Assembly (NCBI GenBank): GCA_008360975.2
Contig: CM039182.1
Location: 151,255,858 to 151,319,857, forward strand
Length of the DNA: 64,000 nucleotides
Source of the DNA: Lichenostomus cassidix
Taxonomy: Eukaryota; Chordata; Aves; Passeriformes; Meliphagidae
Direction of reading: 5' to 3'
The number at the start of each line of letters is the position of its first letter. Within the stretch, counting starts at the first letter, position 1. The notes under the pieces are model-generated. The model ran no database searches, was not told the DNA's origin, and worked only from the letters and a program-made list of their open reading frames with translations. This document shows, one piece after another, positions 14,476-64,000 of this stretch. The position numbers were made by a program, and so were the translations under genes.

Positions 14476-14506
<31 letters not shown>

Positions 14507-14565: not shown

Positions 14566-14596
<31 letters not shown>

Positions 14597-15414: not shown

Positions 15415-18400
15415 CTGCGGGAAAATGTTGGGAATTTTAGGGGAAAACCCCCAAAATTTGGCGGAAAAAATCCCAATTTTAGCGGAAAAATCCCAAATCT
15501 AAGGAGAGAAATCCCAATTTTAGGGGGAAAATCCAAATTTTAAGGGGACAAATCCGAAATTTAAGGGAAAATCCTAAATTTAGGGGGAAAATCCCATTTT
15601 TAGGGTAGAAATCCCAAAAATTTTGGGGAATCCCAAATTTAGAGGCGAAATCCCGAATTTAAGTGGAAAATCCCAATTTGAGGGGAAAATCCCATTTTTA
15701 AGGACAAATTCCAAAATTTTTAGGGAAAACCCCATTTTTAAGAACAAATGCCAAGATTTTAATGGAAAATCCACATTTTCAGGAGTCAACCCCAATTTTT
15801 AGGATCTAAACTTTCATTTTTAGGGAAAACCCGTATTTAGGGGCAAAATCCCTAAAATTTTCTCGTGTGAACTCTGGGATTTGGGATGGAATCCAAACTG
15901 GTTTCATTCCCGCAGGAGTTGGAAAACCAGGATGGGATTAGCGCTTCCCGCTTGGATTGACCCTCTGGAATGGGATTTTCCCAACCATTTCATTCCCAGG
16001 CGGATCCCAACCCCAATCCCAATCCAAATCCCAATAAAAATTCCAATCCCAATAAAAATTCCAATCCTAAACCTGATCCCAATTCAATTCCCACTCCTGA
16101 TCCCAATGCCAATCCCATCCGATCCCGATCCCAACCCCAATCCCAATCCAACCCCAACCCCAATCCCAATCCCGATCTCAACCCCAATCCCAATCCCGAT
16201 CTCAACCCCAATCTCGATCCCGATCCCCTTTTCCCAATCCCAATCCTAATCCGAATCCAATCCCAATCCCAATCCCAACCCCAATCCCAAATCGTAATCC
16301 AACCCCAATCCGACTCCCAATCCAAATCCAATCCAATCCCAATCCCAATCCAATCCCACTCCCAATCTTAACCCCAATCCCAATCCCAAATTCCAATCCC
16401 AACTCCAACCCCAATCCGATCTCAATCCCAATCTTAACCCCAATCCAATCCCAATCCCACTCCCAACACCAATCCCGATCCCAAATTCCAATCCCAGTCC
16501 CAATTCCAACCTCAGTCCCAATCCCAACCCAGCCTCAATCCCAATCCTGATCCCAATCCCAAATTCCAATCCCAACCTCAATCCCAATCCCAACCCCAAT
16601 CCCAAACCAACCTCAACCCCAATCCCAATCCCAACTCCAACCCCAATCCCAATCCCATCCCAACCCCACCTCAGTCCCAATTCCAATTCCAATCCCAATC
16701 CCAACCCCAACCCCAATCCTGATCCCAATCCCACCCCAACCCAACCCCAATCCCAACCCCAATCCCAGTTTTGATTCCAATCCCAATCCCAACCCCAATC
16801 CCAACCCCAACCCCGATCCCAAATCCCAACTCACCGATCCCATGGAACACCCTGGCGATGGCTCTGCCGGTGAAATCCTCATCCGGATGCGCGGCGAGGA
16901 ACTTCCGGACGTCGGCGCGGATTTGCTCTTCCCAATCCTTCACCTGCAGATGGAAAAATTTGGGAATTCTCATCCCTTTGCTCTCCCTAATCCCAAAAAA
17001 ATCCGGGATTTGCTCACTTTCGCCATTTCCCGTTTTTTCTCCTCCTCCTCTTCCTCGTCGTCTCCCTCGGATTCGATCCGATCCCGCCGGAAATATTCCT
17101 GGAGAATCTCCTTCAGCTGAGAGCTTCTCCTCTCCTGCTCCTCTTCCGGAGGCTCCGGATGGAAACTTGGGAACGCCACGCTGTGCCCGGGAAATCCACC
17201 AATCAGATCCCAGCATTCCGATCCCAACCCCAATCCCGAACCCAAATTCCAATTCCGATCCCAACCTCAATCCCAATCTGATCACAATTCCAATCTCCTT
17301 TTCCCAATCCCAATCCAATTCCAACCACAACCTGAATCCCAACCCCAAATCCCAATCCAATCCCAGTGCCAACCCCAATCCCAATCCCAATCTCCAAATC
17401 ACTATCAATCCCAATCCCATCCCAATCCCAATCCCATCCAATCCAATCCCAATCCCAACCCCAATCCCAGGGAAAATTCCCGTTTTTCCCTCGCCTCTGG
17501 AATGCCCGGAAGCAGGCGCAGAGCTGCCGGAGCGCGACTTTTTCCATCCCAATCCCAATCCCAATGCCGATCCCAACCCTGATCCAGATCCCAATCCAAT
17601 TCGGATCCAAATTCCAATCCTAACCCCAATCCCAATCTCAACCCCCATTCCAATGCCAATCCCCACCCCATTCCCCACTCTAACCCCAATTCTAATCTCA
17701 ATCTCCAAATCAATATCAATCCCAATCCCAATCCCAATCCCAAATCCCAATCTCAAATCCAAATCCCAATCCCAATCCCAATCCAAATTTAATCCCAAAG
17801 CCAATCCCAATCCCAATCCCAATCGCAATCCCAATGAAATCCCAAATCCCAATCCAATTTGGATCCAAATTCCAATCCCAACCCCAATCCCAATCCCAAT
17901 CCCAATCCCAATCCCAATCCCAATCAGCCAATCCCAATCCCAATCCAACCCCATTCCCATTCCCATCCCAATCCAATCTCAACCCCAAATCCCAATCCCA
18001 ATCTCAACCTCAATCCCACCCCAATCCCAATCCCACGGAAAATTCCCATTTTTCCCACCTCTGGAAAGCCCGGAAGCACTGCCGGAGCTGCCGGAGCGCC
18101 GCCTTTTCAATCCCGATCCCAATCCCAACCCCAATCCCAACCCCAATCCAATCCAATCCCAAATCCCAATCCAATCCCAAATTCCAATTCCAACCCCATT
18201 CCCAATCCCAATCCCAACCCCATTCCCATCCCAATCAAATCCCAAATCCCAAATCCCAATCCAATACCAAATTCCAATTCCAATTCCAATCCCAATCCAA
18301 ATCCCAATCCCATGGAAAATTCCCATTTTTCCCTCACCTCTGGAAAGCCCGGAAGCACTCGTGGAGCTGCCGGAGCGCGGCCTTTTCCCGGGAAATCGCT

Positions 18401-21400
18401 CGGCCGTGCAGGAACTCGCAGACGGAATCCAATTCCGGCGGCTCGAGATCTCCGACGGCGCGGAAGTGGAAGGAGAGTTCATGGAATTCCACCAGGATCC
18501 CGCTTTTCCTGCCTGGCGGAGAGACGGGTGGGATTTTCCAATGGATTCCCGCGAAATTCCGGCTGGATTCCCGTGAAATTCCCGAGAAATTCCCGTAAAA
18601 TTCCTGTGGAATTCCTGCTGGATTCCCGTGAAACTCCCATGGAATTCCCACTAGATTCCCATGAAATTCCCATGGAATTCCTGCGAAATCCCAACAGAAT
18701 TCCTGCTGGATTCCTGTGAAATTCCCACAAAATTCCCGCGAAACTCCTGTGGAATTCCTACAAAATTCCTGCAAAATGGGAAATTTCATTTCCCATGAAA
18801 TTCCCGTGAAACTCCTGCTGGATTCCTGAGAAATTCCCATAAAATTCCTGTGGAATTCCTGCTGGATTGCCGCGAAATTCCCACGGAATTCCTGCTGGAT
18901 TCCCACAACATTCCCATGAAATTCCCATGGAATTCCTGGGAAACTCCCTTGAAATTCTTATGGAATTCCTGTGAAACTCCCATGAAAATTCCCACGAAAT
19001 TCCCGTGGAATTCCTGCAAAATCCCTGCAGAATTCCCGTGGAATTCCCACTAAATTCCCAAAAAATTCCCGCTGGATTCCTGTGAAACTCCTGTGGAGTT
19101 CCTGATGGATTCCCGCGAAACTCCCATGAAAATCTCCATGAAATTCCTGGTGGATTCCTGGGAAAATTCCCATGGAATTCCCACAAAATTCTCGCTGGAA
19201 TTTCTGTGAAACTCACAAAATTCCCATTAGATTCCCATGGAATTCCCGTGAAATTCTTATGGAATTCCTGTGAAACTCCCATGAAAATTCCCATGAAGTT
19301 CCCATGGAATTCTTGCAAAATCCCTGCGGAATTCCCGCTAAATTCCCACAAGATTCCCACGAGATTCCCACAAAATTCCTGACAAATTCCCGCTGGATTC
19401 CTGTGGAATTCCCGCTAGATTGCCGCGAAATTCCCACTGGATTCCGGCGGAATTCCTGTGAAACTCCTGTGGAATTCCTGCAGAATTCCAGTGAAATTCT
19501 TATGGAATTCCCGTGAAACTCCCATGAAAATTCCCATGAAATTCCCATGAAATTCCCATAGAATTCCTGCAAAACCCCTGTGGAATTCCCATGGAACTCC
19601 CACTGTATTCCTGCGAAATTCCCATGAAATTCCCACAAAATTCCCATGAAATTCCCACGAAATTCCTGCTGAATTCCCACAAAACTCCCATGGAATTCCT
19701 GTTGAATTACCACGAAATTCCCATGGAACTCCCGCTGTATTCCTGCAAAATTCCCATGAAATTCCCACACCGGATTCTCCACAAAATTCCCACAAAATTC
19801 CCAAAAATCTTCCCGGGAAATCACCTTTCCGGGGATCCCGCTGGAGTCGGCTGAGCTCTCGTTTCACCAGCCGAGATTCCCAACCCATGGAGTCGCTCAG
19901 GGCGACGACGTCGAATTCCATGGATCCCGAAATTCCCGAAATTCCCGAAATTCCCGAGGGATTCCTCGCCAGGAGAACCGCCAGAGGAGGAGAACTGGGG
20001 GGAAAAATGGGAATTTTGAGGGAAAATGGGAATTTTGGGGAAAAAAAGGGAATTTTTGGGGAAAAAAGGGGGATTTTGGGAAAACTGTGGGATGGGAATG
20101 ATCGGAATTCTGTTGGAATTCTGGGATTTTGGGAAAAAATTTTGGGAATTTTGGGGGAAAAAGGGAATTTTGGGGAAAAAATGGGAAATTTGGGGGAAAA
20201 AATGGGAATTTTGGAGGAAAAATGGGAATTTTGGGAAAAGAATGGGATGGGAATGAATCAAATCCTGTCAGAATTCCGGGATTTCGGGGGAAAAAATGGG
20301 AATGTTTGGGGAAAAAATAGGATTTTTGGGGAAAAAAACGGGAATTTTGGGGGAAAAAATGGGAAATTTGGTAAAAAAACTGGGAATTTTGGGAATTCTC
20401 ACCTCTGCGCCGCCTCACGGAGCTGGCGGGATCCTCCGGAGCAGCGGATCCGGCAGCGGGAATAGGTGGGAAGAAGCAATTCCAAGAAATTCCCGGGATG
20501 GAGATCCAGGTAGCACAGGAGAGTCTCGATGGCTGTGGGGGAGAAAGGAAAAATTGGGAATGGGTTTGGGATTTTTGGGGTTTTGGGGGTTTTTTTGGGA
20601 TTTTTGGGGAGTTCTGGTGGAATTCCCACGAAATTGCCATGAAATTCCTGCGGAATTCCCGCAAAAATTCCCACAAAATTCCCCAAAAATTCCCGTGAGA
20701 TTCCCGCTGGATTCCCACAACATTCCCGCAAAATTCCTGCAGAATTCTGGCAAAATTCCCACAAAAATTGCCGCAAAATTCCTGTGGCATTCCCAAGGAA
20801 TTCCCACAAAATTCCCGTGAAATTCCTGCAAAACTCCTGTGGAATTCCCACAACATTCCCGCTGGATTCTGGCAAAATTCCTGTGGAATTCCCACTGGAT
20901 TCCCAAGAAATTCCTGCAAAATTCCTGTGAAATGCCCACAAAATTCTGGTGAAATTCCCACAGAATTCCTGCAAAATTCCTGCTGGATTCTGGCAAAATT
21001 CCTGTGGAATTCCTGCTGGATTCCTGTGAAATTCCCATGAAATTCCCGCAAAATTCCCATGGAATTCCCGCAAAGTTACCGCAAAATTCCTGCGAAATTC
21101 CAATTGGATTCCCGCAAAATTCCCGCCCAATTCCCCAAAAATTCCCATGAAATTCCCACAAAATTCCTGTGAAAGTCCCATGGAATTCCCGTGAAATTCC
21201 TGCTGCATTGTGGTGAAATTCCCGCGGAATTCCCACAAAATTCCTGCAAAACTCCTACGGAATTCCCATGAAATTCCCTCAAAATTCCCGCTGGATTCTG
21301 GCAACATTCCTGTGGAATTCCCATGAAATTCCCACAAAATTCCCATAAAAATTCCAGCAACATTCCTGTGGAATTCCCACTAAGTTCCCCAAAAGTCCCT

Positions 21401-24400
21401 GCAAAATTCCCACAAAATTCCCACTAGATTCTGGCAAAATTCCTGTGGAATTTCCATGAAATTCCCACAAAATTCCCGTGAAACTCCTGCTGGATTCCTG
21501 CAAAACTCCTGTGAAATTCCCATGGAATTCCCGCAAAATTCCCGTTGGATTCCGGCAAAATTCCTGTGGAATTCCTGCTGGATTCTCATGAAATTCCCAC
21601 AAAATTCTCACTGGATTCCCGTGAAATTCCCACAAAATTCCTGCCAGATTCCTGTGAAATTCCTGCAAAATTCCTGCTGGATTCCCACAAAAATTCCCAC
21701 AAAATTCCAGTGGAATTCTCGTGAAATTCCCGTGAAATTCCTGCTGGATTCCCATGAAATTCCCACAAAATTCCCATCAAATTCCTGTGGAATTCCCGCA
21801 AAATTCCTGCCGGATTCCCACAAAATTCCCACAAAATTCCCACAAAATTCCCACGAAATTCCCGTTTTTTGGAGGTTGATTCCCGAGGTTTTTTCACCTT
21901 CCTCCCGCAGATCCAAAGATTCCACGATTTCCCGGATGGGGATGGATCTCTCGTGGCCGTGGCAGATCCGACGGTTTTCCCGCTTTTCCGGGTTTTCCTT
22001 GTCCAAAAATTCCGGGATTTTGGGATTTTCTGGTTCTCTGCCCTGAGGAGAATCCGGAATTTTGTTTGGGGTATTTTGAGTTTTCCCTAAAATTTGTAAT
22101 TCCCAATGAAATTTAAAAAATTCCCAACAAAATTGCCAAAAATTCCCCCAAAAATTCCCAAAAATTCCCAATGAAATTCTCAATGAAATTGTCAAAAAAT
22201 TCCCAATGAAATTCCAATGAAATTCCCCAAAAATTCCCAATGAAATTCCCCAAAAGTTCCCAATGAAATTCCCAATGAAATTCCCAAAAATTCCCAAAAA
22301 ATTCCAAAGAAATTCCCAAAAATTCCCAAAAAATTCCCAATGAAATTCCCAAAAATCCCCAAGAAATTCCCAAAAATTGCCAATGAAATTCTCAATGAAA
22401 TCATCAAAATTCCCCCAAAAATTCATTAAAGCTCCCAAATTCCAAAAAATGCCCAATGAAATTCCCGAGAAATTACAAAAATTCCAATGAAATTACCAAT
22501 GAAATTCCCAAAAATTCCCAATGAAATTCGAATGAAATTCCCAAGAAATTCCCAATGAAATCCCCAAAAATTCCAAAGAAATTTCCAATGAAATTCCCCA
22601 AAAGTTCCCCAAAAATTCCCAAAATTTCCAATGAAATTCCCAAAAAATCCCAAAGAAATTCCCAAAAATTCCCAAAAAATTCCCAATGAAATGCCCAAGA
22701 AAATTCCAAATGAAATTCTAATGAAATTCCCAAAAAGTTTCCAATGAAATTCCCAAAAATTCCAATGAAATTCCCAATGAAATTCCCAATGAAATTCCAA
22801 TGAAATTCCCAAAAATTCCAAAGAAATTCCCAAGAAAATCCCCAAAAATTCCAAAAATTCCCAACGAAATCACTCAGAAAATTCCAAAGTTTTTTAGGAA
22901 GTTGGGAATGGGATCCCAAAATTCCCAAAAAATTCCCAATGAAATTCCCTTGAAATTCTCTCAAAATTCCCAACAAAATTCCCAAAAAATTCCAAAAATT
23001 CCCAATGAAATTCTCAAGAAATTCCCAACAAAATTGCTCAGAAATTCCCAAGTTTTCGGGAAGTTGGGAATGGGATCCCAAAATTCCCTCATTCCCAATG
23101 AAATTCCCAAGAAATTCCCCAAAAATTCCCAATGAAATTCCAAAAAATTCCAAAAAAATTCCAAAAAAATTAATAAAAATTCCCAATGAAATTCCAAGAA
23201 ATTCCAAAAATTCCAAATGAAATTTCCAAAAAATTCCCAAAAATTCCCCAAAAATTCCCTCATTCCCAATGAAATAATCTGGAAATTCCAACGTTTTTAA
23301 GAAGTTGGGAATGGAATCCCAAAATGCCAAAAATTCCCAAAAAATTCCCAATGAAAAATCCCAAAAATTCACAATGAAATACCCAAAAAATTCCCCAAAA
23401 TTCCCCAAAAAATCCCCAAAATTCCCCAAAAATCCCCAAAGAAATTCCCAATGAAATTCCCAAGAAATTCCCAAAAAATTCCAAAAAATTCTCCCAAAAA
23501 TTCCCCAAAATCCCCAAATATCCCAAAAATCACCAAAAAAAAACACAAAATCCCCAAAATCCCAAAAATTCTCCCAAAAATCCCCAAAATCCCAAAAAAA
23601 TTCCCAAAAATCCCCAAAAAATCCCCAAAATCGAAAACCCCAAAAAAAAAAAAAAATTCCAAAAAAATCCCCAAAAATTAAAAAAAACCCAAAAAATCCC
23701 AAAAATCCCCAAAAAATCCTCCCAAAATCCCCCCAAAAATCCCCAAAAAATCCCCAAAAATTCCCAAAAAATTGCCAAAAATTCCAAAAAAATCCCCAAA
23801 AATTAAAAAAAAATCCAAAAAAATCCAAAAAAATTCCCAAAAATCCCCCAAAAATCCCCCAAAATTCCCAAAAAATCCAAAAAAATCCCCAAAATTCCCA
23901 AAAATTGCCAAAAATTCCAAAAAATCCCCAAAATTAAAAAATCCAAAAAAATCCAAAAAATCCCAAAAATCCCCCAAAAAATCCCAAAAAATCCCAAAAA
24001 ATCCCCAAAATTCCCAAATTTCCCCACCAATCCCAAAAATTCCCAAAATCCCCAAAAAATCCCCAAAAATCCCAAAAAATCCCAAAAATTCCCAAAAATT
24101 CCCCAAAAATTCCCAAAAAATCCCCCAAAAATCCCAAAAATCCCCAAAAAATTCCCCAAAAATTCCCAAAAATCCCCCAAAAAATCCCCAAAATATCCTC
24201 AAAAATTGCCAAAAAATTAAAAAAAATCCCCCAAAATTCCCCAAAAACTCCCCAAAAACACCCCCAAAAATCCCCCAAAACCCCCAAAATTCCCACCTTT
24301 TCCCCACCAATCCCAAAAACCCGGAATATTCTCCCCACCTGGGCGAATTCCCGAATTTTCCCGTGGATCTCCCGACATTTGCAGGGAAAGAAAACCTTCT

Positions 24401-27400
24401 GGATCAACTTCTTGACGGAGAGGAAATCCACGGAATCTGCCAGGATGTGACGCCGAAGCTCCGGCAGGTCCTGACCCTGCGGAAAATCCATGGAAAATCC
24501 ATGGAAAAATCCCAAAATTCCGGGATTTTCCCAAAAATTCCCGGTAGAAAAACCCCAAAATCCCATTTTTCCCCCCCCAAAAAAATCCGGAAAATCCATT
24601 AGAAAATCCCGGAAATCCATGGAAAAATCCCAAATTCCTGTTTTTTCCCCCAAATTCCTGTTTTTTCCCCCCAAAATTCCCAGCGGAAATCCATGGAAAA
24701 ACTCCAAAAATCCATGGAAAAATCCCAAAATTCCAGGATTTTCCCAGAATTCCCAGCAAAAATCCACAGAAAAACCCCCAAATTCCCATTTTTTTCCACC
24801 CAAATTCCCAGCAGAAATCCATGGAAAAATCCCACAAATCCACAGAAAAAACCCAAATTTCTGGGTTTTTCCCAAAAAATTCCCCTTGAAATCCATGGAA
24901 AAATGCAAAATATCCATGGAAAAACCTCAAATTTCCAGTGGAAATCCATGGAAAACCACAAAAAATTCATTGAAACAACCCAGAAAATCCATGGAAAAAC
25001 TCCAGTAATCCATGGAAAAACCTGGAAAATCCGTGGAAAACCCCCAAATTTCATGGATTTTCCACAAAAATTCCCGGTAGAAAACCCCCAAAATCCCATT
25101 TTTTCCCCCCAAAATTCCCATTTTTTTCCCTAAATTCCTGTTTTTTTCCCCCAAAATTCCCATTTTTTCCCCTAAATTCCTGGTTTTTTTCCCTAAATTC
25201 CCATTTTTTTTCCTAAATTCCTGTTTTTCTCCCCAAATTCCCAGTGGAAAAACCCCAAATTCCCTTTTTTTTCCCCAAAATTCCAGTGGAAATCCATGGA
25301 AAAACCCGAAAAATCCATGGAAAAATCCCAAAATTCCGGGATTTTCCCAAAAATTCCCCTTGAAATCCATGGAAAAACCTGAAAAATCCATGGAAAAATC
25401 CCAAAATTCCGGGATTTTCCCAAAAATTCCCAGTAGAAAAACCCCAAAATCCCATTTTTTCCCCGCAAAATTCCCATTTTTTTCCTAAATTCCTGCTTTT
25501 TTTCCCCAAAATTCCCATTTTTTTTCCTAAATTCCTGTTTTTTTCCCCAAATTCCCAGTGGAAAAACTCCAAATTCCCGTTTTTTTCCCCAAAATTCCAG
25601 TGGAAATCCATGGAAAAACCCCAAAAATCCATGGAAAAATCCCAAAATTCCGGGATTTTCCCCAAAATTTCCCAGCAGAAATCCATGGAAAAATGCTGAA
25701 AATCCATGAGAAAATCCCAGAAATCCATGGAAAAATCACAAATTTCCAGGATTTTCCCAAAAATTCCCAGTGGAAAACCCCCAAAATTTACGGAAAAACA
25801 GAAAATCCATGGAAAAACCCCAAATTCCCATTATTTTTCCCAAAATTCCCAGTGGAAAAACCCAAATTTCTAGGATTTTCCCAAAATTTCCCAGTGGAAA
25901 TCCATGGAAAAACACAGAAATTCATGAAAAAACCCAGATATCCATGGAAAAACATGGAAAATCCATGGAAAAACCACAAATTCCTGGGTTTTCCCCCCAA
26001 ATTCCCATTGGAAAAATCCCCAAATTCCCGTTTTTCCCCCTAAATTCCCAATGGAAAAACTCCAGAAATCCATGGAAAACCCTGGAAAATCCACAGAAAA
26101 ACCTCAAATTTCTGGGATTTTCCCAAGAATTCCCAGCGGAAAAACCCCAAATTCCTGTTTTTTCCCCCAAATTCCCAGCGGAAATCCATGGAAAAACTCC
26201 AAATTCCCATTTTTTTTTCCAAAATTCCCAGTGGAAAAACCCCGAAAATCCACGGAAAAACCCCAAATTTCATATTTTGCCAAAAATTCCCAGTGGAAAA
26301 ACCCCAGAAATCTACAGGAAAACCTCAAAATTCCCAGTTTTTTCCCCAAATTCCCAGTGGAAAAACTCCAAATTCCCTTTTTTTTCCCCCAAAATTCCAG
26401 TGGAAATCCATGGAAAAACCCCAAAAATCCATGGAAAAAGCCCAAAATTCTGGGATTTTCCCAAAAATTCCCGGAAGAAAAACCCCAAAATTCCATTTTT
26501 CCCCCCAAAATTCCCATTTTTTTTCCTAAATTCCTGTTTTTTTTCCCCAAAATTCCCATTTTTTTCCTAAATTCCTGTTTTTTTTCCCCAAAATTCCCAG
26601 TGGAAAAACTCCAAATTCCCGTTTTTTTCCCCAAATTTCCAGTGGAAATCCATGGGAAAACCCGAAAAATCCATGGAAAAATCCCAAAATTCTGGGATTT
26701 TCCCCAAAATTTCCCAGCAGAAATCCATGGAAAAACTCAGAAATCCATGGAAAAAGACCAAATTTCCAGGATTTTCCCAAATTTCCAGCGGAAATCCATG
26801 AAAAAACGTAAAAAATTAATGGAAAAATGCAAAAAATTCATGGAAAACCCCAAATTGCATGGATTTTCCCGAGAATTCCCAGCGGGAATCACCAGAAAAT
26901 CTATGGAAAAAACCTCAAATTTTCGGGATTTTCACAAAATTCCCAGTGGAAAACCCACAGAAATCCCATTTTTTTTCCTCCAAATCTCCAGGATTTTTCC
27001 CAAAATTCCCATTTTTTCCCCAAAATCCCCATTTTTCCCCCCAAAATCCCCACCTGTGGCTCCAGGAAGAGGTGACACTTTTCTCCCAAAATTCACTTTT
27101 TTTCCCCCCAAATTCTCAGTTTTTTCCCCCAAAATTCCCATTTTTCCCCCCAAAAACCCCACCTGCAGCTCCAGGAACAGGTGACTATTTTTCTCCCAAA
27201 ATACCCAAAATTCCCATTTTTTCCCCCGAAATTCCCATTTTTTCTCCCAAATTATCATTTCTTACCCTCAAATTCCCATTTCTTTCTCCAAAATTCCCAT
27301 TTTTTCCCTCCATGAATTCCCAATTTTTTCCCCCAAATTCTCATTTTTTCCCCCAAAATTCCCATTTCCCCCCAAATCCCCATTTTTCCTCCCAAAATTC

Positions 27401-51060: not shown

Positions 51061-51098
51061 CCCAGGAAGCAGGAAACGCCCAGCTGGGAACGGAGAAC
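51061..51098 (-). pseudogene. Decoy copy 1 of RECQL4 exon A 5' edge with acceptor
   Basis: The first 38 bp of exon A ([13 protein letters not shown]) behind AAATTGCAG|. The array follows at once, with no donor. It lies 290 bp upstream of the true acceptor. Confidence 0.93.
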
Positions 51099-51435: not shown

Positions 51436-51473
51436 CCCAGGAAGCAGGAAACGCCCAGCTGGGAACGCAGAAC
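51436..51473 (-). pseudogene. Decoy copy 2 of RECQL4 exon A 5' edge
   Basis: Same 38 bp with one substitution (CTGCGTTCCC); acceptor AAATTGCAG| kept. Confidence 0.93.
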
Positions 51474-53314
51474 CTGCAATTTGGGAAACATTTGGGAAAA
51501 ATTTGGGAATTTTGGGACGGGAAGGGTTAAATCCCAGAGTTTTAGGGTTAAATTCCATATTTTCAGTCCCAAATTCCATATTTTCAGTACCGAAAATCCA
51601 CATTACTGCCAAAATCCCATATTTTTAGTGCCCAAATCTCACATTTCCAATCCCAAATCCCACATTTTCAAATCCACATTTTCATTGCCCAAATCCCACA
51701 TTTTTTCTTCTCAAATCCCACATTTTTGAGTGAAAAATTCCACATTTTGTAGATCCAAATTCCTCATTTTTACTACTCAAATCTCACACTTTTTGTCCCA
51801 AATCCCATAATTTCAGTGCCCAAAATCCTCATTTTCACTCCTGAATTCCACATTTTTAGTGCCAAAATCCCATACTTTTAGCACCACAAACCCCACATTA
51901 TTTTATTTCCCAAATCCCACATTTTTAGGGTCAAATTCTTCATTTTTGGGGCCAAAATCCCAAACTTTTCATGTTCAAATCCCATGTTTTTAGTGCCCAA
52001 AAGTCACATTTTATTCCCCAAATCCCACATTTTTAGTTCCCAAATTCCACATTTTTAGTGCCAAAATCCCATAATTTTAGTGCCCAAATTCCCACATTTT
52101 CAGCCCCAAATCCCATATTTTGAGCACCCAAATCCTATATTTTTAGTTCTCAAATTTCACATTTTTATTGCCCAAATCCCATAATTTCAGTGCCAAAATC
52201 CCACATTTTTTTGGCCAAAATCACACATTTTCAGCCTCAAATTCCTCCTTTTCATTGCCCAAATCCCAGATTTTTACATCTCAAATCCCACATTTTTTTA
52301 GTGCCAAAATTCCACATTTTCAGTTCCCAAATCCCACAATTTTTGTGGCCAAAATCTCACATTTTTAGTGCCCAAAATTCATCTTCTTCGTGCCCAAATC
52401 GCACATTTTCAGCCCCAAATCCCACATTTTCAGCTCCAAAATTCCACATTTTTTGTGCCAAAATCCCACATTTTCAGTCCCAAATCCCACATTTGTTTTT
52501 TCCCAAATTCCACATTTTTAGTGCCAAAATCCCATAATTTTAGTGCCTAAATTTCACATTTTTAGTGCCCAAAATTCACATTTTTAGTGCCAAAATCCCA
52601 CATTTTCAAATCCACATTTTTAGTCCCAAATCCCATATTTTGAGCAACCAAATCCCACATTTTTAGTGCCCAAAATTCACATTTTCGGTGCCAAATTCCA
52701 TAGTTTTACTTCCCAAATCCCTCATTTCCAATCCCAAATCCCACAGTTGAAAATCCAACATTTTCAGCCCCAAATCCCACATTTTCAGTGCCAAAATCCC
52801 AAATTTCAGACCCAAATTTCACATTTTTAATGCCCAAATCCCACATTTTTAGTGCCCAAAATTCACATTTTCTTTGCCAAAATCCCACATTTTTAGTGCC
52901 CAAAATTCATCTTTTTCTTGCTCAAATCCCACATTTTCAGTTCCCAAATTCCACATTTTCAGTGCCAAAATCCCATAATTTCAGTGCCCAAATCCTATAT
53001 TTTTATTGCCCAAATTTCACGTTTTTAGTGCCAAAATCCCACAGTTTTAGGGTCAAATTCTTCATTTTTAGTGCCAAAATCCCACATTTTTAGTGCCCAA
53101 AATTCACATTTTCAAATCCCAAATCCCACATTTTCTTTGCCCAAATCCCACATTTTCAGTTCCCAAATCCCACAGTTTTTAGTGCCAAAATTCCACATTT
53201 TTAGGATCAAATTCTTCATTTTTGGGGCCAAAATCCCACATTTTTAGTGCCCAAAATTCACATTTTCATTGCCCAAATCCCATATTTTTGGATCCCAAAT
53301 CCCACATTTTCAGC

Positions 53315-53352
53315 CCCAGGAAGCAGGAAACGCCCAGCTGGGAACGGAGAAC
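53315..53352 (-). pseudogene. Decoy copy 3 of RECQL4 exon A 5' edge
   Basis: Same 38 bp, identical to the exon; acceptor AAATTGCAG| kept. Confidence 0.93.
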
Positions 53353-53987
53353 CTGCAATTTGGGAAAAATTTGGGAAAATTTTGGGAAAAATTAGGAAAA
53401 CTTTGGGAATTTTGGGAGGTTTAGGGCCAAATCCCACATTTTTAGGGTGAAAATCCCACGTTTTTAGGCTCAAATTCCTCATTTTCAGGGCCAAATTCCA
53501 CAGTTTTAGGGCCAAAATCCCATATTTTTACTTCCCAAATTCCTCATTTTCAGGGCCAAATCCCACATTTTTATTGCCCAAATCCCACATTTTCAGCCCC
53601 AAACTCCATAGTTTTAGTTCCCAAATCCCACAGTTTTTAATTCCCAAATCCCACAGTTTTAGGGTCAAATTCTTCATTTTCAGGGCCAAAATCCCACATT
53701 TTTCCTGCCCAAAATTCACACTTTTACTCCCAAATCCCACATTTTTCAGCCCCAAATCCCAAATTTTCAGTGCCAAAATCCCAAATTTCAGACCCAAATT
53801 TCACATTTTTAATGCCCAAATGCCACATTTTTAGTGCCCAAAATTCACATTTTCTTTGCCAAAATCCCACATTTTTAGTGCCCAAAATTCATCTTTTTCT
53901 TGCTCAAATCCCATATTTTCAGTTCCCAAATTCCACATTTTCACTGCCAAAATCCCATAATTTTAGTGCCCAAATCCTATATTTTTA

Positions 53988-55559
53988 TTGCCCAAATTTC
54001 ACGTTTTTAGTGCCAAAATCCCACAGTTTTAGTGTTCAAATCCCAAATTTTTGGGGCCAAAATTCCACATTTTTCATGCTCAAATCCCATAGTTTTAGTG
54101 CCAAAATTCCACATTTTCAGCCCCAAATCCCACATGATTTTTAGTGCCAAATTTCACATTTTTAGTTCCAAAATCCCACATTTTCAGCCCCAAATCCCAT
54201 ATTTTTCTTGCTCAAATCCCACATTCTTTTAGTGCCAAAATTCCCCATTTTCAGCCCCAAATTCCTCATTTTCAGCCCCAAATCCCACATGATTTTTAGT
54301 GCCAAATTTCACATTTTTCTTGCCCAAATCCCACATTTTCAGTTCCCAAATCCCACATTTTCAGTTCCCAAACCCAATATTTTCAGTTCCCATATTTCCC
54401 ATTTTTAGTGCCAAAATCCCACATTTCCAACCCCAAATCTCACAGTTTCAAATCCACATTTTCAAATCCCAAATCCCACATTTTTAGTGCCCAAAATTCA
54501 CATTTTCAGTCCCAAATCCCATATTTTCATCCCAAAATTCACATTTTCATTCCCCAAATCCCATATTTTTAGATCCCAAATCCCACATTTTCAGCCCCAG
54601 GAAGCAGGAAACGCCCAGCTGGGAACGGAGAACCTGCAATTTGGGAAAAATTTGGGAAAATTTCGGGAAAAATTAGGAAAACTTTGGGAATTTTGGGAGG
54701 TTTAGGGCAAATTCCTACATTTATAGGGACAAATTCCATATTTTTAGGGCCAAAATCCCACATTTTCAGTCCCAAATTTCACATTTTCAGCCCCAAATCC
54801 CATATTTTCAGAGTCCAAATCCCACATTTTTTTAGGGCCAAAATTCCTCATTTTCAGTCCCAAATCCCACATTTTTAGTGCCCAAATCCCACATTTTCAG
54901 TTCCCAAATCCCAGATTTTTGGGGTCAAAATTCCGTATTTTTCATGCTCAAATCCCACATTTTCCAATCCCACATTTTCAGCCCCAAATCCCAGATTTTG
55001 AGCACCCAAATCCTATATTTTTAGTTCTCAAATTTCACATTTTTATTGCCCAAATCCCATAATTTCAGTGCCAAAGTCTCACATTTTCAGCCCCAAATTC
55101 CTTGTTTTCATTGCCCAAATCCCAGATTTTTACATCTCAAATCCCACATTCTTCTAGTGCCAAAATTCCACATTTTCAGCCCCAAATCCCACAATTTTTG
55201 TGGCCAAAATCCCACATTTTTAGTGCCCAAAATTCATCTTTTTCTTGCCCAAATCCCACATTTTTTTTCCCAAATTCCACATTTTCAGTGCCAAAATCAC
55301 ACTTGTTTTTAGTGCCAAATTCCCTATTTTTCGTGCCCAAAATCCCACATTTTCAGTTCCCAAATCCCAGATTTTTAGTGCCAAAATCCCACATTTTTAG
55401 TGCCCAAAATTCACATTTTTAGTGCCCAAAATCCCACATTTTCAAATCCCCATTTTCAGACCCAAATCCCACATTTTCAGCCCCAAATCCTATATTTTCA
55501 GTTCCCAAATCCCATATTTTTAGTGCCCAAAATTCACATTTTCGGTGCCAAATTCCATA
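53988..55559. repeat. 1.57-kb segment duplicated at 62,429-64,000
   Basis: At a constant offset of 8,441 bp the two segments look identical over at least 1.57 kb, including decoy exon copies 4 and 7. Similarity with scattered mismatches extends about 60 bp further left. The match reaches the window edge, so the true length is unknown. Confidence 0.92.
54596..54633 (-). pseudogene. Decoy copy 4 of RECQL4 exon A 5' edge
   Basis: Same 38 bp, acceptor kept. It lies inside the segment duplicated again at 62.4-64.0 kb. Confidence 0.93.
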
Positions 55560-56750
55560 GTTTTACTTCCCAAATCCCTCATTTCCAATCCCAAATCCCA
55601 CAGTTGAAAATCCAACATTTTCAGCCCCAAATCCCACATTTTCAGTGCCAAAATCCCAAATTTCAGACCCAAATTTCACATTTTTAATGCCCAAATTCTG
55701 TATTTTTAGTGCCCTAAATTCACATTTTCTTTGCCCAAAATCCCACATTTTTAGTGCCCAAAATTCATCTTTTTCTTGCTCAAATCCCACATTTTCAGTT
55801 CCCAAATCCCACATTTTCAGTGCCAAAATCCCATAATTTCAGTGCCCAAATCCTATATTTTTATTGCCCAAATTTCACGTTTTTAGTGCCAAAATCCCAC
55901 AGTTTTAGGGTTCAAATCCCAGATTTTTGGGGCCAAAATTCCACATTTTTCATGCTCAAATCCCATAGTTTCAAATCCACATTTTCAGCCCCAAATCCCA
56001 TATTTTTCTTGCTCAAATCCCACATTCTTTTAGTGCCAAAATTCCCCATTTTCAGCCCCAAATTCCTCATTTTCAGCCCCAAATCCCACATGATTTTTAG
56101 TGCCAAATTTCACATTTTCAGTTCCCAAATCCCACATTTTCAGTTCCCAAATCCCACATTTTCAGTTCCCAAACCCAATATTTTCAGTTCCCATATTTCC
56201 CATTTTTAGTGCCAAAATCCCACATTTCCAACCCCAAATCTCACAGTTTCAAATCCACATTTTCAGCCCCAAATCCCATATTCTGTGCACCCAAATCCTA
56301 TATTTTCATTGCCCAAATTTCTCATTTTCAGCCCCAAATCCCACATTTTCTTTGCCCAAATCCCAGAATTTCAGTTCCCAAATCCCACAGTTTTTAATGC
56401 CAAAATCCCACATTTTTAGGGTCAAATTCTTCATTTTTTGTGCCAAAATCCCACATTTTTCGTGCCCAAAATTCACATTTTTAGTGCCCAAAATTCACAT
56501 TTTCACCCCAAATCCCATATTTTTAGTTCCCAAATCCCACATCTTTAGTGCCCAAAATACCCATTTGCAGAAACAAATCCCATATTTTTTAATTTCCCAA
56601 ATCCCACATTTTCTTTGCCAAAATCCCACATTTTCAGTGCCCAAAATCCCAGATTTTTACTTCCCAAATCCCACATTTTTAGTATCCAAAACTCATCTTT
56701 TCAGAGCCCAAAATTCCATATTTTTAGTGCCCAAAATTCACATTTTCAGT

Positions 56751-57155
56751 TGGAATGATTTTTTGGGGAAAATTTTGGGATTTGGGATGATTTTTTGGGG
56801 AAAATTTTGGGAATTTGGGAAAAATTGGGAAAATTTGGGAATTTGGGATGATTTTTCCAGAAAAATTTGGGAATTTTGGGATTTGGGATGTTTTTTCCAC
56901 TAAAATTTTGGGAATTTTGGGGACTTGGGATGTTTTTTTGGGGAAAATTTTGGGAATTTGGGATTTTTTGGGGGGAAAATTTTGGGAATTTTGTGGATTT
57001 GGGATGATTTTTCTGGGAAAATTTTGGGAATTTGGGGGATTTGGAGGATTTTTCCATTAAAATTTTGGGAATTTTGAAAGAGTTTTTCAGGATTTTCCTG
57101 CTTTTCCTGGGGAAATGTGGGTTTGGATTTGGGAAGAGTCAAATCCCAGAGTTTT
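56751..57155. repeat. G-rich 405-bp block, copy 1 of 3
   Basis: Begins TGGAATGATTTTTTGGGGAA and ends near GGGAAGAGTCAAATCCCAGA. It is a G-rich + strand segment (GGGGAAAATTTTGGGAATTT) set within the C-rich array, with a unique-looking stretch CAGGATTTTCCTGCTTTTCC. The other copies are at 57,791-58,195 and 60,248-60,650. Confidence 0.9.
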
Positions 57156-57790
57156 AGGGTCAAAATTCACATTTTTAGTGCCAAAATCCCATAATTTTAG
57201 TGCTCAAATCCCACATTTTCAGCCCCAAATCCCATATTTTGAGCATCCAAATCCTATATTTTCATTGCCCAAAATTCACATTTTCAGTTCCCAAATCCCA
57301 CAATTTTAGTGCCAAAATCCCACATTTTTTCAGCCCCAAATTCCAGATTTTTAATGCCAAATTCCAGTATTTTTAGTGCCCAAAATTCCCATTTTCAGCA
57401 CCAAATCCCACATTTTTTTATTGCCCAAATCCCACATTTTCAGTTCCCAAATCCCACATTTTTGGGGCCAAAATTCCGTATTTTTCATGCTCAAATCCCA
57501 TATTTTCAAATCCCACATTTTCAGCCCCAAATCCCACATTTTTAGTGCCCAAAATTCACATTTTCATTGCCCAAATCCCATATTTTTAGATCCCAAATCC
57601 CACATTTTCTTTGCCAAAATCCCACATTTTTAGTGCCCAAAATTCATCTTTTTCTTGCCCAAACCCCACATTTTCAGTGCCCAAAATCCCCGATTTTTAC
57701 TTCCCAAATCCCACATTTTTAGTATCCAAAACTCATCTTTTCAGAGCCCAAAATTCCATGTTTTTAGTGCCCAAAATTCACATTTTCAGT

Positions 57791-58195
57791 TGGAATGATT
57801 TTTCCAGGAAAATTTTGGGATTTGGGATGATTTTTTGGGGAAAATTTTGGGAACTTGGGAAAAATTGGGAAAATTTGGGAATTTGGGATGATTTTTCCAG
57901 AAAAATTTGGGAATTTTGGGATTTGGGATGTTTTTTCCACTAAAATTTTGGGAATTTTGGGGACTTGGGATGATTTTTCGGGGAAAATTTTGGGAATTTG
58001 GGATTTTTTGGGGGGAAAATTTTGGGAATTTTGCGGATTTGGGATGATTTTTCTGGGAAATTTTTGGGAATTTGGGGGATTTGGAGGATTTTTCCATTAA
58101 AATTTTGGGAATTTTGAAAGAGTTTTTCAGGATTTTCCTGCTTTTCCTGGGGAAATGTGGGTTTGGATTTGGGAAGAGTGAAATCCCAGAGTTTT
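57791..58195. repeat. G-rich 405-bp block, copy 2 of 3
   Basis: Nearly identical to the copy 1,040 bp to the left, including the flanking AAAATTCACATTTTCAG. Confidence 0.9.
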
Positions 58196-58285
58196 AGGGT
58201 CAAAATTCCACATTTTTAGTGCCAAAATCCCATAATTTTAGTGCCCAAATTTCACATTTTCAGCTCCAAATCCCACATTTTCAGC

Positions 58286-58323
58286 CCCAGGAAGCAGGAA
58301 ACGCCCAGCCGGGAATGGAGAAC
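58286..58323 (-). pseudogene. Decoy copy 5 of RECQL4 exon A 5' edge, diverged
   Basis: Same segment with substitutions (CTCCATTCCCGGC); the acceptor reads AAACTCCAG|. Confidence 0.9.
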
Positions 58324-60247
58324 CTGGAGTTTGGTAAATTTGGGAAAATTTGGGGGAAAATTAGGAATTTTGGGATGGGAAGGGTTAAATCCCAGAGTTT
58401 TAGGGTGAAATTCCACATTTTCAGCCCCAAATCCCATATTTTTTGCCCCAAATCCCATATTTTGTCGCAAGAAATCCCAAATTTTTATTGCCCAAATCCC
58501 ACGTTTTTAGTGCTAAATTCCCACATTTTTACTTCTCAAATCCCACATTTTTAAATCCCACATTTTTCATGCCAAAATCCCATATTTTTAGGGCCAAAAT
58601 CCCATAATTTTACTTCCCCAATTTCCCATTTCCTGCCCTAAATCCCACATTTTTCATGCCAAAATCCCACTTTTTTTAGTGTCAAATTCCTCATTTTCAA
58701 ATCCCACATTTTCAGCCCCAAATTCCACATTTTCAGTCCCAAATCTCACATTTTCAGTGCCAAAATTCCATAATTTTAGTGCCAAAATCCCATATTTTTG
58801 TAATGGCAAATTCAACATTTTCAGCCTCAAATTCCATATTTTCTTTGCCCAAATCCCACATATTTTTAGTGCCAAAATCCCACATTTTTATTGCCCAAAT
58901 CTCACATTTTTAGGTCCAAATCCCACATTTTTATTGCTCAAAACTCACATTTTTCACACCCAAATATTTTTTCAGACCTTTTTTTTTTTTGCCCAAATCC
59001 CACTTTGGTTTTTTGCCAAAATCACATTTTTATTTGGTGCCAAAATCCCACATTTTCAAATCCACATTTTCAGCCCCAAATCCCACAGTTTTCATCCCAA
59101 ATCCCAGATTTTTTAAAGAAAAATTCCACATTTTTTTAGATTCAAATTCCTCATGATTAGTAGACCCAAATCCCACATTTTTCGGCCCAAATCCCATAAT
59201 TTCACTGCCAAATATCCCAAATTTTTAGTGCCAAAATCCCAAATTTCAGACCCAAATTTCACATTTTTAATGCCCAAATGCCACATTTTTAGTGCCCAAA
59301 ATTCATCTTTTTCTTGCTCAAATCCCACATTTTCAGCCCCAAATTCCACATTTTCAGTGCCAAAATTCCATAATTTCAGTGCCCAAATCCTATATTTTTA
59401 TTGCCCAAATTTCACGTTTTTAGTGCCAAAATCCCACAGTTTTAGGGCTCAAATCCCAAATTTTTGGGGCCAAAATTCCACATTTTTCATGCTCAAATCC
59501 CATAGTTTCAAATCCCACATTTTCAGCCCCAAATCCCAGATTTTCACTTCTCAAATCCCACATTTTTTTAGTGCCAAAATTCCCCATTTTCAGCCCCAAA
59601 TTCCTCATTTTCAGCCCCAAATCCCACATGATTTTTAGTGCCAAATTTCACATTTTCAGTTCCCAAATCCCACATTTTCAGTTCCCAAATCCCACATTTT
59701 CAGTTCCCAAACCCAATATTTTCAGTTCCCATATTTCCCATTTTTAGTGCCAAAATCCCACATTTCCAACCCCAAATCTCACAGTTTCAAATCCACATTT
59801 TCAGCCCCAAATCCCATATTCTGAGCACCCAAATCCTATATTTTTAGTGCCCAAATTTCTCATTTTCAGCCCCAAATCCCACATTTTCTTTGCCCAAATC
59901 CCAGAATTTTTGTTCCCAAATCCCACAGTTTTTAATGCCAAAATCCCACATTTTTAGGGTCAAAATCTTCATTTTTGGTGCCAAAATCCCACATTTTTAG
60001 TGCCCAAAATTCACATTTTCAGTTCCCAAATCCCACATTCTTTTTAATGCCCAAAATTCACATTTTCATTGCCCAAATCCTATATTTTTAGTTCCCAAAT
60101 CCCACATTTTCAGCCCAAAATCCCACATTTTCAGTGCCCAAAATCCCAGATTTTTACTTCCCAAATCCCACATTTTTAGTATCCAAAACTCATCTTTTCA
60201 GAGCCCAAAATTCCATGTTTTTAGTGCCCAAAATTCACATTTCCAGT

Positions 60248-60650
60248 TGGAATGATTTTTCCAGGAAAATTTTGGGACTTGGGATGATTTTTTGGGGAAA
60301 ATTTTGGGAATTTGGGAAAAATTGGGAAAATTTGGGAATTTGGGATGATTTTTCCAGAAAAATTTGGGAATTTTGGGATTTGGGATGTTTTTTCCACTAA
60401 AATTTTGGGAATTTTGGGGACTTGGGATGATTTTTCGGGGAAAATTTTGGGAATTTGGGATTTTTTGGGGGGAAAATTTTGGGAATTTTGCGGATTTGGG
60501 ATGATTTTTCGGGGAAAATTTTGGGAATTTGGGGGATTTGGAGGATTTTTCCATTAAAATTTTCGAATTTTGAAAGAGTTTTTCAGGATTTTCCTGCTTT
60601 TCCTGGGGAAATGTGGGTTTGGATTTGGGAAGAGTCAAACCCCAGAGTTT
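60248..60650. repeat. G-rich 405-bp block, copy 3 of 3
   Basis: Nearly identical to copy 2, 2,457 bp further right. The flank on its left is shared with copies 1 and 2. Confidence 0.9.
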
Positions 60651-61567
60651 TAGGGACAAAATTCCACATTTTTAGTGCCAAAATCCCATAATTTTCGTGC
60701 CCAAATTTCACATTTTCAGCTCCAAATCCCATATTTTCAGAGTCCAAATCCCACATCTTTTTAGGGCCAAAATCCCACATTTTCAGCCCCAAATTCCATA
60801 TTTTTAGTGCCCAAAATTCACATTTTTAGTGCCCAAAATTCACATTTTCAGTTCCCAAATCCCACCGTTTTAGGGTCAAAATCCCACATTATTTTAGTGG
60901 AAATCCCACATTTTTAGCACTCAAATCCCACATTTTTTTAGTTCCGAAATCCCACATTTTTAGGGTCAAATTCCTCATTTTTAGGGTCAAAATCCCACAT
61001 TTTTCAGGCTCAAATCCCACATTTCCAGACCGAAATCCCAGATTTTTAGTGTTGAAATCCCACACTTTTCCTGCTCAAATCCCATATTTTTGTAATGCCG
61101 AATTTCACATTTTCAGCCCCAAATCCCATCTTTTTAGTTCCCAAAATTTCACATTTTCAGCCCCAAATTTCACATTTCCAGCACCAAATTCCAGATTTTT
61201 ATTGCCCAAAATTCACATTTTCAGTTCCCAAATCCCACATTTTCAGAGCCAAAATTCACATTTTTAGTGCCCAAAATTCACATTTTCAGCCCCAAATCCC
61301 ATATTTTTAATGCCAAAATCCAGTATTTTTATTGCCCAAATCCCACATTTTCAGCCCCAAATCCCACTTGTTTTTCCCCCAAATCTCAGATTTTTATTGC
61401 CCAAATCCCACAGTTTCAAATCCCACATTTTCAGAGTCCAAATCCCACATTTTTAGTGCCAAAATTCCACATTTTCAGCCCCAAATCCCATAATTTTTGT
61501 GGTCAAAATCCCACTTTTTTAGTGCCCAAAATTCATCTTTTTACTTCTCAAATCCCACATTTTCAGC

Positions 61568-61605
61568 CCCAGGAAGCAGGAAACGCCCAGCTGGGAACGG
61601 AGAAC
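61568..61605 (-). pseudogene. Decoy copy 6 of RECQL4 exon A 5' edge
   Basis: Same 38 bp, identical to the exon; acceptor AAATTGCAG| kept. Confidence 0.93.
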
Positions 61606-63036
61606 CTGCAATTTGGGAAAAATTTGGGAAAATTTCGGGAAAAATTAGGAAAACTTTGGGAATTTTGGGAGGTTTAGGGCAAATTCCTACATTTATAGGG
61701 ACAAATTCCACATTTTTAGGGCCAAAATCCACATTTTCAGTCCCAAATCCCATATTTTTAGTGCCCAAAATTCATATTTTTAGCGCCAAAATCCCACATT
61801 TTCAAATCCACATTTTCAGTCCCAAATCCCATATTTTGAGTACCAAATCCTATATTTTTAGTTCCCAAATTTCACATTTTTATTGCCAAAATCCCATAAT
61901 TTTAGTGCCAAAATCCCACATTTTTTTGGCCAAAATCTCACATTTTCAGCCCCAAATTCCTCGTTTTCATTGCCCAAATCCCAGATTTTTACTTCTCAAA
62001 TCCCACATTTTTAGTGCCAAAATTCCACATTTTCAGCCCCAAATCCCATAATTTTTGTGGCCAAAATCCCACATTTTTAGTGCCCAAAATTCATCTTTTT
62101 ATTGCCCAAATCCCACATTTTCAGCCCCAAATCCCACATTTTCAGCTCCAACATTCCACAATTTTTGTGCCAAAATCCCACATTTTCAGACCCGAATTTC
62201 TCATTTTCAGCCCCAAATCCCACATTTGTTTTTCCCAAATTCCACATTTTCAGTTCCCAAATCCCACAGTTTTTAATGCCAAAATCCCACATTTTTAGTG
62301 CCCAAAATTCACATTTTCGGTGCCAAATTCCATATTTTTACTTCCCAAAATCCCACATTTTCAGCCCCAAATTCCACATTTTCAGTGCCAAAATCCCATA
62401 ATTTTAGTGCCAAAATCCTATATTTTCATTGCCCAAATTTCACGTTTTTAGTGCCAAAATCCCACAGTTTTAGTGTTCAAATCCCAAATTTTTGGGGCCA
62501 AAATTCCACATTTTTCATGCTCAAATCCCATAGTTTTAGTGCCAAAATTCCACATTTTCAGCCCCAAATCCCACATGATTTTTAGTGCCAAATTTCACAT
62601 TTTTAGTTCCAAAATCCCACATTTTCAGCCCCAAATCCCATATTTTTCTTGCTCAAATCCCACATTCTTTTAGTGCCAAAATTCCCCATTTTCAGCCCCA
62701 AATTCCTCATTTTCAGCCCCAAATCCCACATGATTTTTAGTGCCAAATTTCACATTTTTCTTGCCCAAATCCCACATTTTCAGTTCCCAAATCCCACATT
62801 TTCAGTTCCCAAACCCAATATTTTCAGTTCCCATATTTCCCATTTTTAGTGCCAAAATCCCACATTTCCAACCCCAAATCTCACAGTTTCAAATCCACAT
62901 TTTCAAATCCCAAATCCCACATTTTTAGTGCCCAAAATTCACATTTTCAGTCCCAAATCCCATATTTTCATCCCAAAATTCACATTTTCATTCCCCAAAT
63001 CCCATATTTTTAGATCCCAAATCCCACATTTTCAGC

Positions 63037-63074
63037 CCCAGGAAGCAGGAAACGCCCAGCTGGGAACGGAGAAC
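63037..63074 (-). pseudogene. Decoy copy 7 of RECQL4 exon A 5' edge
   Basis: Same 38 bp, acceptor kept; the counterpart of copy 4 at an offset of 8,441 bp. Confidence 0.93.
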
Positions 63075-64000
63075 CTGCAATTTGGGAAAAATTTGGGAAA
63101 ATTTCGGGAAAAATTAGGAAAACTTTGGGAATTTTGGGAGGTTTAGGGCAAATTCCTACATTTATAGGGACAAATTCCATATTTTTAGGGCCAAAATCCC
63201 ACATTTTCAGTCCCAAATTTCACATTTTCAGCCCCAAATCCCATATTTTCAGAGTCCAAATCCCACATTTTTTTAGGGCCAAAATTCCTCATTTTCAGTC
63301 CCAAATCCCACATTTTTAGTGCCCAAATCCCACATTTTCAGTTCCCAAATCCCAGATTTTTGGGGTCAAAATTCCGTATTTTTCATGCTCAAATCCCACA
63401 TTTTCCAATCCCACATTTTCAGCCCCAAATCCCAGATTTTGAGCACCCAAATCCTATATTTTTAGTTCTCAAATTTCACATTTTTATTGCCCAAATCCCA
63501 TAATTTCAGTGCCAAAGTCTCACATTTTCAGCCCCAAATTCCTTGTTTTCATTGCCCAAATCCCAGATTTTTACATCTCAAATCCCACATTCTTCTAGTG
63601 CCAAAATTCCACATTTTCAGCCCCAAATCCCACAATTTTTGTGGCCAAAATCCCACATTTTTAGTGCCCAAAATTCATCTTTTTCTTGCCCAAATCCCAC
63701 ATTTTTTTTCCCAAATTCCACATTTTCAGTGCCAAAATCACACTTGTTTTTAGTGCCAAATTCCCTATTTTTCGTGCCCAAAATCCCACATTTTCAGTTC
63801 CCAAATCCCAGATTTTTAGTGCCAAAATCCCACATTTTTAGTGCCCAAAATTCACATTTTTAGTGCCCAAAATCCCACATTTTCAAATCCCCATTTTCAG
63901 ACCCAAATCCCACATTTTCAGCCCCAAATCCTATATTTTCAGTTCCCAAATCCCATATTTTTAGTGCCCAAAATTCACATTTTCGGTGCCAAATTCCATA

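Follow-up and report, generated by a model that had tools for sequence, protein, structure and literature searches.

Copies of exon edges in the tandem-repeat introns of a honeyeater RECQL4 gene resemble exon stuttering of chicken

Introduction

Sequence stuttering was named in chicken, on avian dot chromosomes, by Hron et al. (2026, Genome Biol Evol, PMC12954441), and exon stuttering is their term for copies of lateral exon parts that include the splice site. According to the text of that paper, chicken exon stuttering concerns 115 genes and 236 introns, 190 of the latter on dot chromosomes. The stuttering introns vary strongly in length between individuals, repeat expansions are present in some instances in other birds, and the authors speculate on repair under replication stress or meiotic conversion as the source. 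A literature search found the terms sequence stuttering and exon stuttering only in this paper. Here we describe RECQL4 in a window of 64,000 nt from the honeyeater Lichenostomus cassidix (assembly GCA_008360975.2, contig CM039182.1, positions 151,255,858 to 151,319,857), in which exon edges are copied, together with their splice sites, into the bordering tandem-repeat introns. A preliminary description of this DNA, made from the sequence alone, knew of no named class of intron growth that fits; in this it was wrong, as exon stuttering is such a class.

As far as the chicken cases are set out in the text of PMC12954441, RECQL4 resembles them in that a lateral exon part with its donor or acceptor is repeated through the bordering, tandem-repeat-filled intron, and in that the source mostly lies at most 1 base from the exon border. 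The exon part measures 20–187 nt in chicken and 25–98 nt in our screen of RECQL4, and the copy number is 1–44 in chicken and 1–9 here. Unlike the screen of Hron et al., which covered chicken, our case is the RECQL4 gene of another bird. The words RECQL4 and passerine are absent from the main text of that paper, although chicken RECQL4 may be in its supplementary list (Fig. S5), and the main text reports neither copies with older exon states nor an analysis of recombination between copies, conversion appearing only as a possible mechanism. Tandem-repeat introns have been described in GC-rich, hard-to-assemble avian genes, those for leptin, TNF-alpha, MRPL52, PCP2, and PET100 (Beauclair et al., 2019, PMC6792250); they too are built of short tandem repeats, but exon-edge copies are not mentioned in the accessible part of that paper. 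Intron gain by tandem duplication (e.g., PMC4974935, PMC2891723, as far as these texts go) likewise duplicates coding sequence and splice sites, whereas in RECQL4 existing introns grow and no new intron arises. Boundary internal tandem repeats of human paralogues (PMC2812944) also alter gene structure at the exon–intron boundary, but according to the available text they yield novel introns, not exon edges multiplied within an intron array. Literature searches for RECQL4 with intron and minisatellite, or with avian and microchromosome, returned no title on bird RECQL4.

Results

The last 11 exons of RECQL4, designated A–K in transcript order, lie on the minus strand at 15293–50808 and read as a single open frame of 587 residues with a terminal stop, intact coding exons being one of the marks of exon stuttering. 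The best PDB match of the exon-C peptide is human RECQL4 (5lst, E = 2e-28), and Helicase_C is detected in the joined 11-exon protein. The top protein match of the joined protein is RECQ4 of the honeyeater Grantiella picta (76% identity, 79% of the query), followed by other birds and then by reptiles among the best 120 of 959 protein matches. On these matches, the predicted minus-strand gene is RECQL4. The exons upstream of A fall beyond the window end, and the window stops inside the array upstream of exon A.

By alignment and inspection, 25 exon-edge copies were identified, specifically seven of the A acceptor, one of the A donor, four of the B donor, two of the C acceptor, nine of the C donor, and two of the H donor. 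All 25 sit in the intron that borders their source exon and are oriented as the gene. They derive from six of the 21 exon edges (11 acceptors and 10 donors), and the copied exon stretch spans about 23–98 nt, splice site included, in four introns and the array upstream of A. The preliminary description had counted 26; its figures hold for every edge except the B donor, for which it gave five copies, and there the candidate at 38739 was rejected since it aligns only to plain array.

Exon-edge copying at this locus is confirmed as real and well above chance. A first scan with 24-mers, stepped by 4 nt over the exons and their edges at up to 4 mismatches, gave match runs extending into the exon at six edges (A acceptor and donor, B donor, C acceptor and donor, H donor), each in the bordering intron. 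We then screened against chance with blastn-short, using the length and bit-score thresholds alone of Hron et al. (20 nt, 42.1 bits). At or above 42.1 bits there were 17 matches, all 17 in bordering introns and in gene direction and none distal, while 20 runs on mononucleotide-shuffled introns gave 0 matches and a maximum of 30.2 bits. The screen is conservative: seven C-donor copies out of nine, and the C-acceptor copy with 39 exon nt, escape it. With no bit-score cut, the same program gave 57 matches of at least 20 nt (27 proximal and 30 distal), and the 40 below 42.1 bits comprise 10 proximal and 30 distal ones. The preliminary description had the copies always come from the bordering exon edge and never from a distant exon; in the screen this stood at the threshold, distal matches occurring only below it. 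Such adjacency by itself is no pointer to a special mechanism, since any tandem-duplication process gives it geometrically. One of the exon-stuttering criteria applies to 16 of the 17 screen matches, the exception being the internally deleted C-acceptor copy.

No match above 42.1 bits came from exons D, E, F, G, I, J, and K, though their introns, except IJ, are also arrays. In the 24-mer scan, 11 query positions (A 4, B 1, E 1, G 2, H 1, K 2) had same-strand matches in stretches that do not border their exon; some matches lay on the opposite strand, mostly at the intronic tract before exon G (G acceptor). Permissive local alignment added distal or inverted matches of 63–69% identity or of at most 36 nt for exons A, D, E, and G. 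Taken together rather than one by one, these low-scoring distal or inverted matches are read as repeat-like.

The host introns are heavily covered by tandem repeats, as is characteristic of exon stuttering. Tandem Repeats Finder (TRF) covers 83–99% of nine of the ten complete RECQL4 introns, the remaining intron IJ having 74 bp and a coverage of 0, and it covers the array upstream of exon A, of which 13.2 kb is seen, at 1.0. The repeat unit varies by intron; examples are 22 bp around exon A, 21–22 bp in BC, some 20 bp in CD, 11 bp in GH, and 6 bp in HI and JK. On the sense strand, G is two to five times as frequent as C in introns AB, CD, and DE and in the array upstream of A, and nearly equal to C in intron BC. 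G-quadruplex motifs were considered as a common cause and are not general, with sense-strand counts in five arrays of 30 in CD and 12 in DE, but of 0 upstream of A and of 1 each in AB and BC. Inside the 22-bp array upstream of A, three alike blocks of another repeat type occupy 56750–57076, 57790–58116, and 60247–60572. The stretch 62428–64000, which touches the window end, is exactly identical over 1573 bp to 53987–55559, 8441 bp apart, and represents either a recent duplication or an assembly duplication. A 500-N scaffold gap at 13114–13613 lies near a GAA/TTC array of about 310 copies (13787–14724).

An assembly or read-error artefact, in which exon edges stutter or a stretch is falsely duplicated, could draw on the exact 1573-bp repeat and on the gap carried by the scaffold. 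False duplication would not yield copies that vary in sequence, spacing, and flanks as those of RECQL4 do, and the repeat structure of chicken PHF8 introns was checked against raw nanopore data, according to the text of PMC12954441; we regard an artefact as extremely unlikely.

The A-acceptor copies preserve a common joint. All seven consist of about 30 nt of intron and the first 38 nt of the exon, stop at the same exon base, and continue with GCTGAAAATG. Across the array upstream of A, GCTGAAAATG occurs at 69 places, preceded by TTTGGG at 53, by CCTGGG at seven, which are the copies, and by other words at nine; the copied part of exon A itself terminates in CCTGGG. One founder junction would give both the common exon end and the CCTGGG-GCTGAAAATG joint in all seven copies. 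The donor copies are arranged the other way round, their exon piece being directly preceded by array sequence. A first copy could have been made by a tandem duplication whose unit straddled the exon–intron junction and placed the exon edge in the intron. For the A acceptor, this duplication probably took place at TGGG, a 4-nt identity common to exon and array, and its unit would have reached from the array across the acceptor into the exon; a truncated exon edge would then have come to lie upstream of the intact exon. Copies made by tandem duplication would be adjacent to the source exon and share its direction. Repeat turnover by slippage, unequal exchange, and short-tract conversion would then have spread the piece through the array alongside purely intronic sequence.

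The copies form short islands within array sequence, as would also be expected if exon fragments such as repair patches or reverse-transcribed pieces had been inserted independently into pre-existing arrays. We consider such insertion very improbable. None of the 17 significant matches is distal or inverted, the end points are common to the members of each family, and intron sequence next to the splice site was copied as well, which speaks against spliced RNA as the source.

Outside the 1573-bp duplication, strict extension shows pairs of A-acceptor copies to have 68–234 nt in common, beyond which their similarity drops to that of the array; the copies at 63074 and 54633 lie within that duplication and hence count as one lineage. 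We compared these values with 266 array windows of 68 nt (51.2–62.4 kb, excluding windows in the duplicate and over exon copies). Forty-six of them are matched perfectly elsewhere, and best matches have a median of 94% and an upper quartile starting from 98.5%; a set of 282 windows with exon copies retained gave equal figures. As perfect 68-nt patches are common in the array, the exon pieces are compatible with passengers carried along by short-patch turnover of the array. The same strict extension led us to reject long higher-order repeats as the carriers of A-acceptor copies; loose extension suggested kilobases of homology but is non-discriminating in an in-phase array.

Most copies retain their splice dinucleotides. 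AG is present in nine of nine acceptor copies and GT in 13 of 16 donor copies (A 1/1, B 2/4, C 9/9, H 1/2), and CAG/GTGGGG (the slash marking the exon border) is unaltered in all nine C-donor copies. The real A junction recurs in four places at 68/68 identity and in two more with 37–38 of its 38 exon nt, and none of the 266 array windows recurs in more than four places at 66/68 or better. Selection for decoy or regulatory splice sites that tune RECQL4 splicing would account for the AG or GT kept in 22 of 25 copies, for the constant C donor, and for the near-exact A-acceptor core. It is nevertheless a highly unlikely cause: perfect 68-nt matches are common in array without exon copies (46/266 windows), GT is lost in three of the six B- and H-donor copies, and 11 codons at which the exon shows the commonest residue carry coding changes in copies. 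The identity of the copies lies at the high end of the array range, and selection on the copies, though not supported, keeps a small probability.

Several copies carry codons that differ from those of the present exon. At C-donor codons 199–200 the exon reads CTG CTG, the four nearest copies CTG CTC, and the five farthest copies have TTC at codon 200 (CTC TTC in three, CTG TTC in two). Codon 200, now Leu in exon C and Phe in the five far copies, is Phe in 15, Leu in two, and Cys in one of 18 aligned relatives; with Phe in 15 of 18, TTC, CTC, and CTG make a plausible series of exon C's own past. The left flanks are distributed differently from these codon states. TGCGAGG is shared by the copies at 29079 (near) and 27635 (far), GGGAGAAAAG by 28524 (near) and by 27995 and 27077 (far), and GGGGAAAAA by 28925 and 28678 (near) and 28201 (far), while 27186 (far) has its own context. 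Such reshuffling of state and flank would require either exchange between core and flank or recurrent mutation at two sites, and it suggests short-tract exchange, perhaps with the exon. Identity of the 24-nt C-donor edge drops with distance (rho -0.82, p 0.007, n = 9, with related copies treated as independent).

Similar cases occur at other edges, judged from an alignment with relatives that includes 20 of the 120 listed proteins. Where exon H has His and Glu, its near copy has Arg449 (16 of 20 relatives) and its far copy Ala450 (12 of 20), the commonest residues at these positions; the A copy at 58323 has Arg5, found in nine of 10 relatives, in place of Gln in the exon. We tallied codons over 24 of the 25 copies, excluding the gapped B copy at 39745. 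At 12 codons the exon lacks the commonest residue and differs from some copy, and at four of these (5, 200, 449, and 450) at least one copy restores that residue. In exon C, and perhaps in H, exchange that may involve the exon would have updated the near copies, with older states surviving farther out.

Table 1. Positions of RECQL4 exons, exon-edge copies and the array upstream of exon A within the window
Feature	Position	Strand	Basis or remark
Exon A (helicase domain)	50623..50808	-	open frame and splice sites; source of acceptor and donor copies
Exon B	39854..40019	-	open frame and splice sites; source of donor copies
Exon C (Helicase_C)	29389..29648	-	PDB match, frame, Helicase_C; source of donor and acceptor copies
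Exon D	24339..24476	-	open frame; no copies above threshold
Exon E	21898..22042	-	open frame; no copies above threshold
Exon F	20403..20532	-	open frame; no copies above threshold
Exon G	19825..19994	-	open frame; no copies above threshold; own short in-frame repeat
Exon H	18338..18512	-	open frame and splice sites; source of donor copies
Exon I	17018..17180	-	open frame; no copies above threshold
Exon J	16835..16943	-	open frame; no copies above threshold
Exon K, with stop codon	15293..15414	-	open frame; no copies above threshold
Array upstream of exon A, 22-bp unit, cut by window end	50809..64000	-	TRF; contains 7 exon A acceptor copies
A-acceptor copy, 30 nt intron and 38 nt exon	63037..63104	-	68 nt identical to real junction
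A-acceptor copy	61568..61635	-	68 nt identical
A-acceptor copy (58323)	58286..58354	-	most diverged; Arg where exon has Gln
A-acceptor copy	54596..54663	-	68 nt identical; duplicate of 63037-63104
A-acceptor copy	53315..53382	-	68 nt identical
A-acceptor copy	51436..51503	-	37/38 exon nt identical
A-acceptor copy	51061..51128	-	38/38 exon nt identical
A-donor copy	49211..49427	-	last 98 exon nt (97% identical) and at least 119 nt intron (alignment ends with query); GT kept
B-donor copy (39745)	39690..39745	-	donor lost
B-donor copy	39315..39352	-	GT kept
B-donor copy	38378..38434	-	GT kept
B-donor copy	37559..37615	-	GT to AT
C-acceptor copy, first 39 exon nt	31594..31713	-	AG kept; outside the 17 screen matches
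C-acceptor copy, internal deletion (about exon bases 6-49 gone)	30585..30672	-	acceptor and 5 exon nt, then bases 50-133
C-donor copy, nearest	29056..29079	-	CTG CTC; GT kept
C-donor copy	28902..28925	-	CTG CTC; GT kept
C-donor copy	28655..28678	-	CTG CTC; GT kept
C-donor copy	28501..28524	-	CTG CTC; GT kept
C-donor copy	28178..28201	-	CTG TTC; GT kept
C-donor copy	27972..27995	-	CTC TTC; GT kept
C-donor copy	27612..27635	-	CTC TTC; GT kept
C-donor copy	27163..27186	-	CTG TTC; GT kept
C-donor copy, farthest	27054..27077	-	CTC TTC; GT kept
H-donor copy	18059..18108	-	GT kept, next bases changed
H-donor copy	17495..17545	-	GT to GC

Two exons were inspected for repeats of their own. Exon G (19825–19994) contains a 9-bp in-frame repeat that encodes GIS three times, against once in the honeyeater Grantiella. 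Exon A was rejected as a carrier of a repeat insertion, its length being equal to that of its relatives in the alignment.

A RhoGAP-domain gene with array introns lies on the minus strand at about 3.9–7.9 kb (3900–7900). Pfam RhoGAP, searched over three stretches of this gene, matched one above and one below the cut-off and left one unmatched. The gene may be ARHGAP39, a neighbour of RECQL4 in human 8q24.3. Used as a control, five of its exons picked by eye among open frames showed no exon copies in a scan with 24-mers every 8 nt at up to 5 mismatches.

Discussion

The exon-edge copies of RECQL4 most probably represent exon stuttering that began with junction-straddling tandem duplication, and spread by repeat turnover. 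Passengers would be the simplest account of the copies, though those that keep AG or GT, as most do, could serve as decoy splice sites. The preliminary description had proposed that the arrays were seeded at, or repeatedly recaptured, exon–intron junctions through slippage, break repair, or gene conversion; local junction seeding by duplication fits the copies, and there is some evidence of later exchange or recapture, but adjacency alone marks no special mechanism.

The older codons in some copies raise a further, rather doubtful reading, namely that the copies are a layered archive of the exon's past in exchange with the exon. Short-tract conversion would overwrite the copies near the exon, ancestral codons would persist in the distant ones, and array variants could pass back into the coding edge by exchange in the opposite direction and accelerate the evolution of that edge. 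The copies with older exon states and the shuffling of codon states and flanks, both seen at few sites, may be new.

Several observations count against these interpretations. Copies that are mere passengers would not readily account for A-acceptor junction windows that are mostly 95–100% alike between flanks that sink to array level, nor for an A junction with more near-exact places than any array window in the comparison. Exchange at the C donor is read from two variable positions in 24 nt, at which recurrent mutation is possible, and neither the B-donor nor the A-acceptor copies show an age gradient by distance. Eight of the 12 codons (105, 107, 110, 112, 119, 120, 142, and 144) are without restoration in the differing copies, six of them in variable columns with 4–9 letters. 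At 11 codons a copy differs from an exon that itself shows the commonest residue, which is plain decay; one further codon is tied. The whole analysis describes one sequence of one assembly, and length polymorphism lies outside such data. The parallel from another bird discussed below is a predicted protein only, and the RefSeq model of the same species (P0114) is without the repeat.

This parallel is a UniRef RECQL4 model of Geospiza parvula (P0112), found among the best 120 proteins. At about residues 482–526, residues ending in GRDGQPARGHLCLHSG recur after 26 residues, where the exon-C equivalent ends, and the linker starts with Val, as read-through of GT would give. The pattern resembles a tandem duplication spanning the exon-C donor that was taken for exon in annotation. 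Internal repeats occur in three more of the listed 120 proteins, in none of them at the exon-C edge.

With this analysis, a phenomenon screened in chicken reaches another bird and a DNA helicase gene, and a single gene illustrates how copies may be seeded, spread, and updated. The GIS repeat of exon G amounts to small repeat growth within a coding exon, though Hron et al., in the text of PMC12954441, saw no repeats crossing into exons in chicken stuttering. Copied exon edges can enter gene models, as the Darwin's finch model suggests, and annotation should be read with this in mind. If copies keep former exon states, the arrays could help to date their own growth and hint at past coding sequence. 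Were the archive reading true, the exon-C series, with TTC far, CTC near, and CTG in the exon, would be its first readable case.

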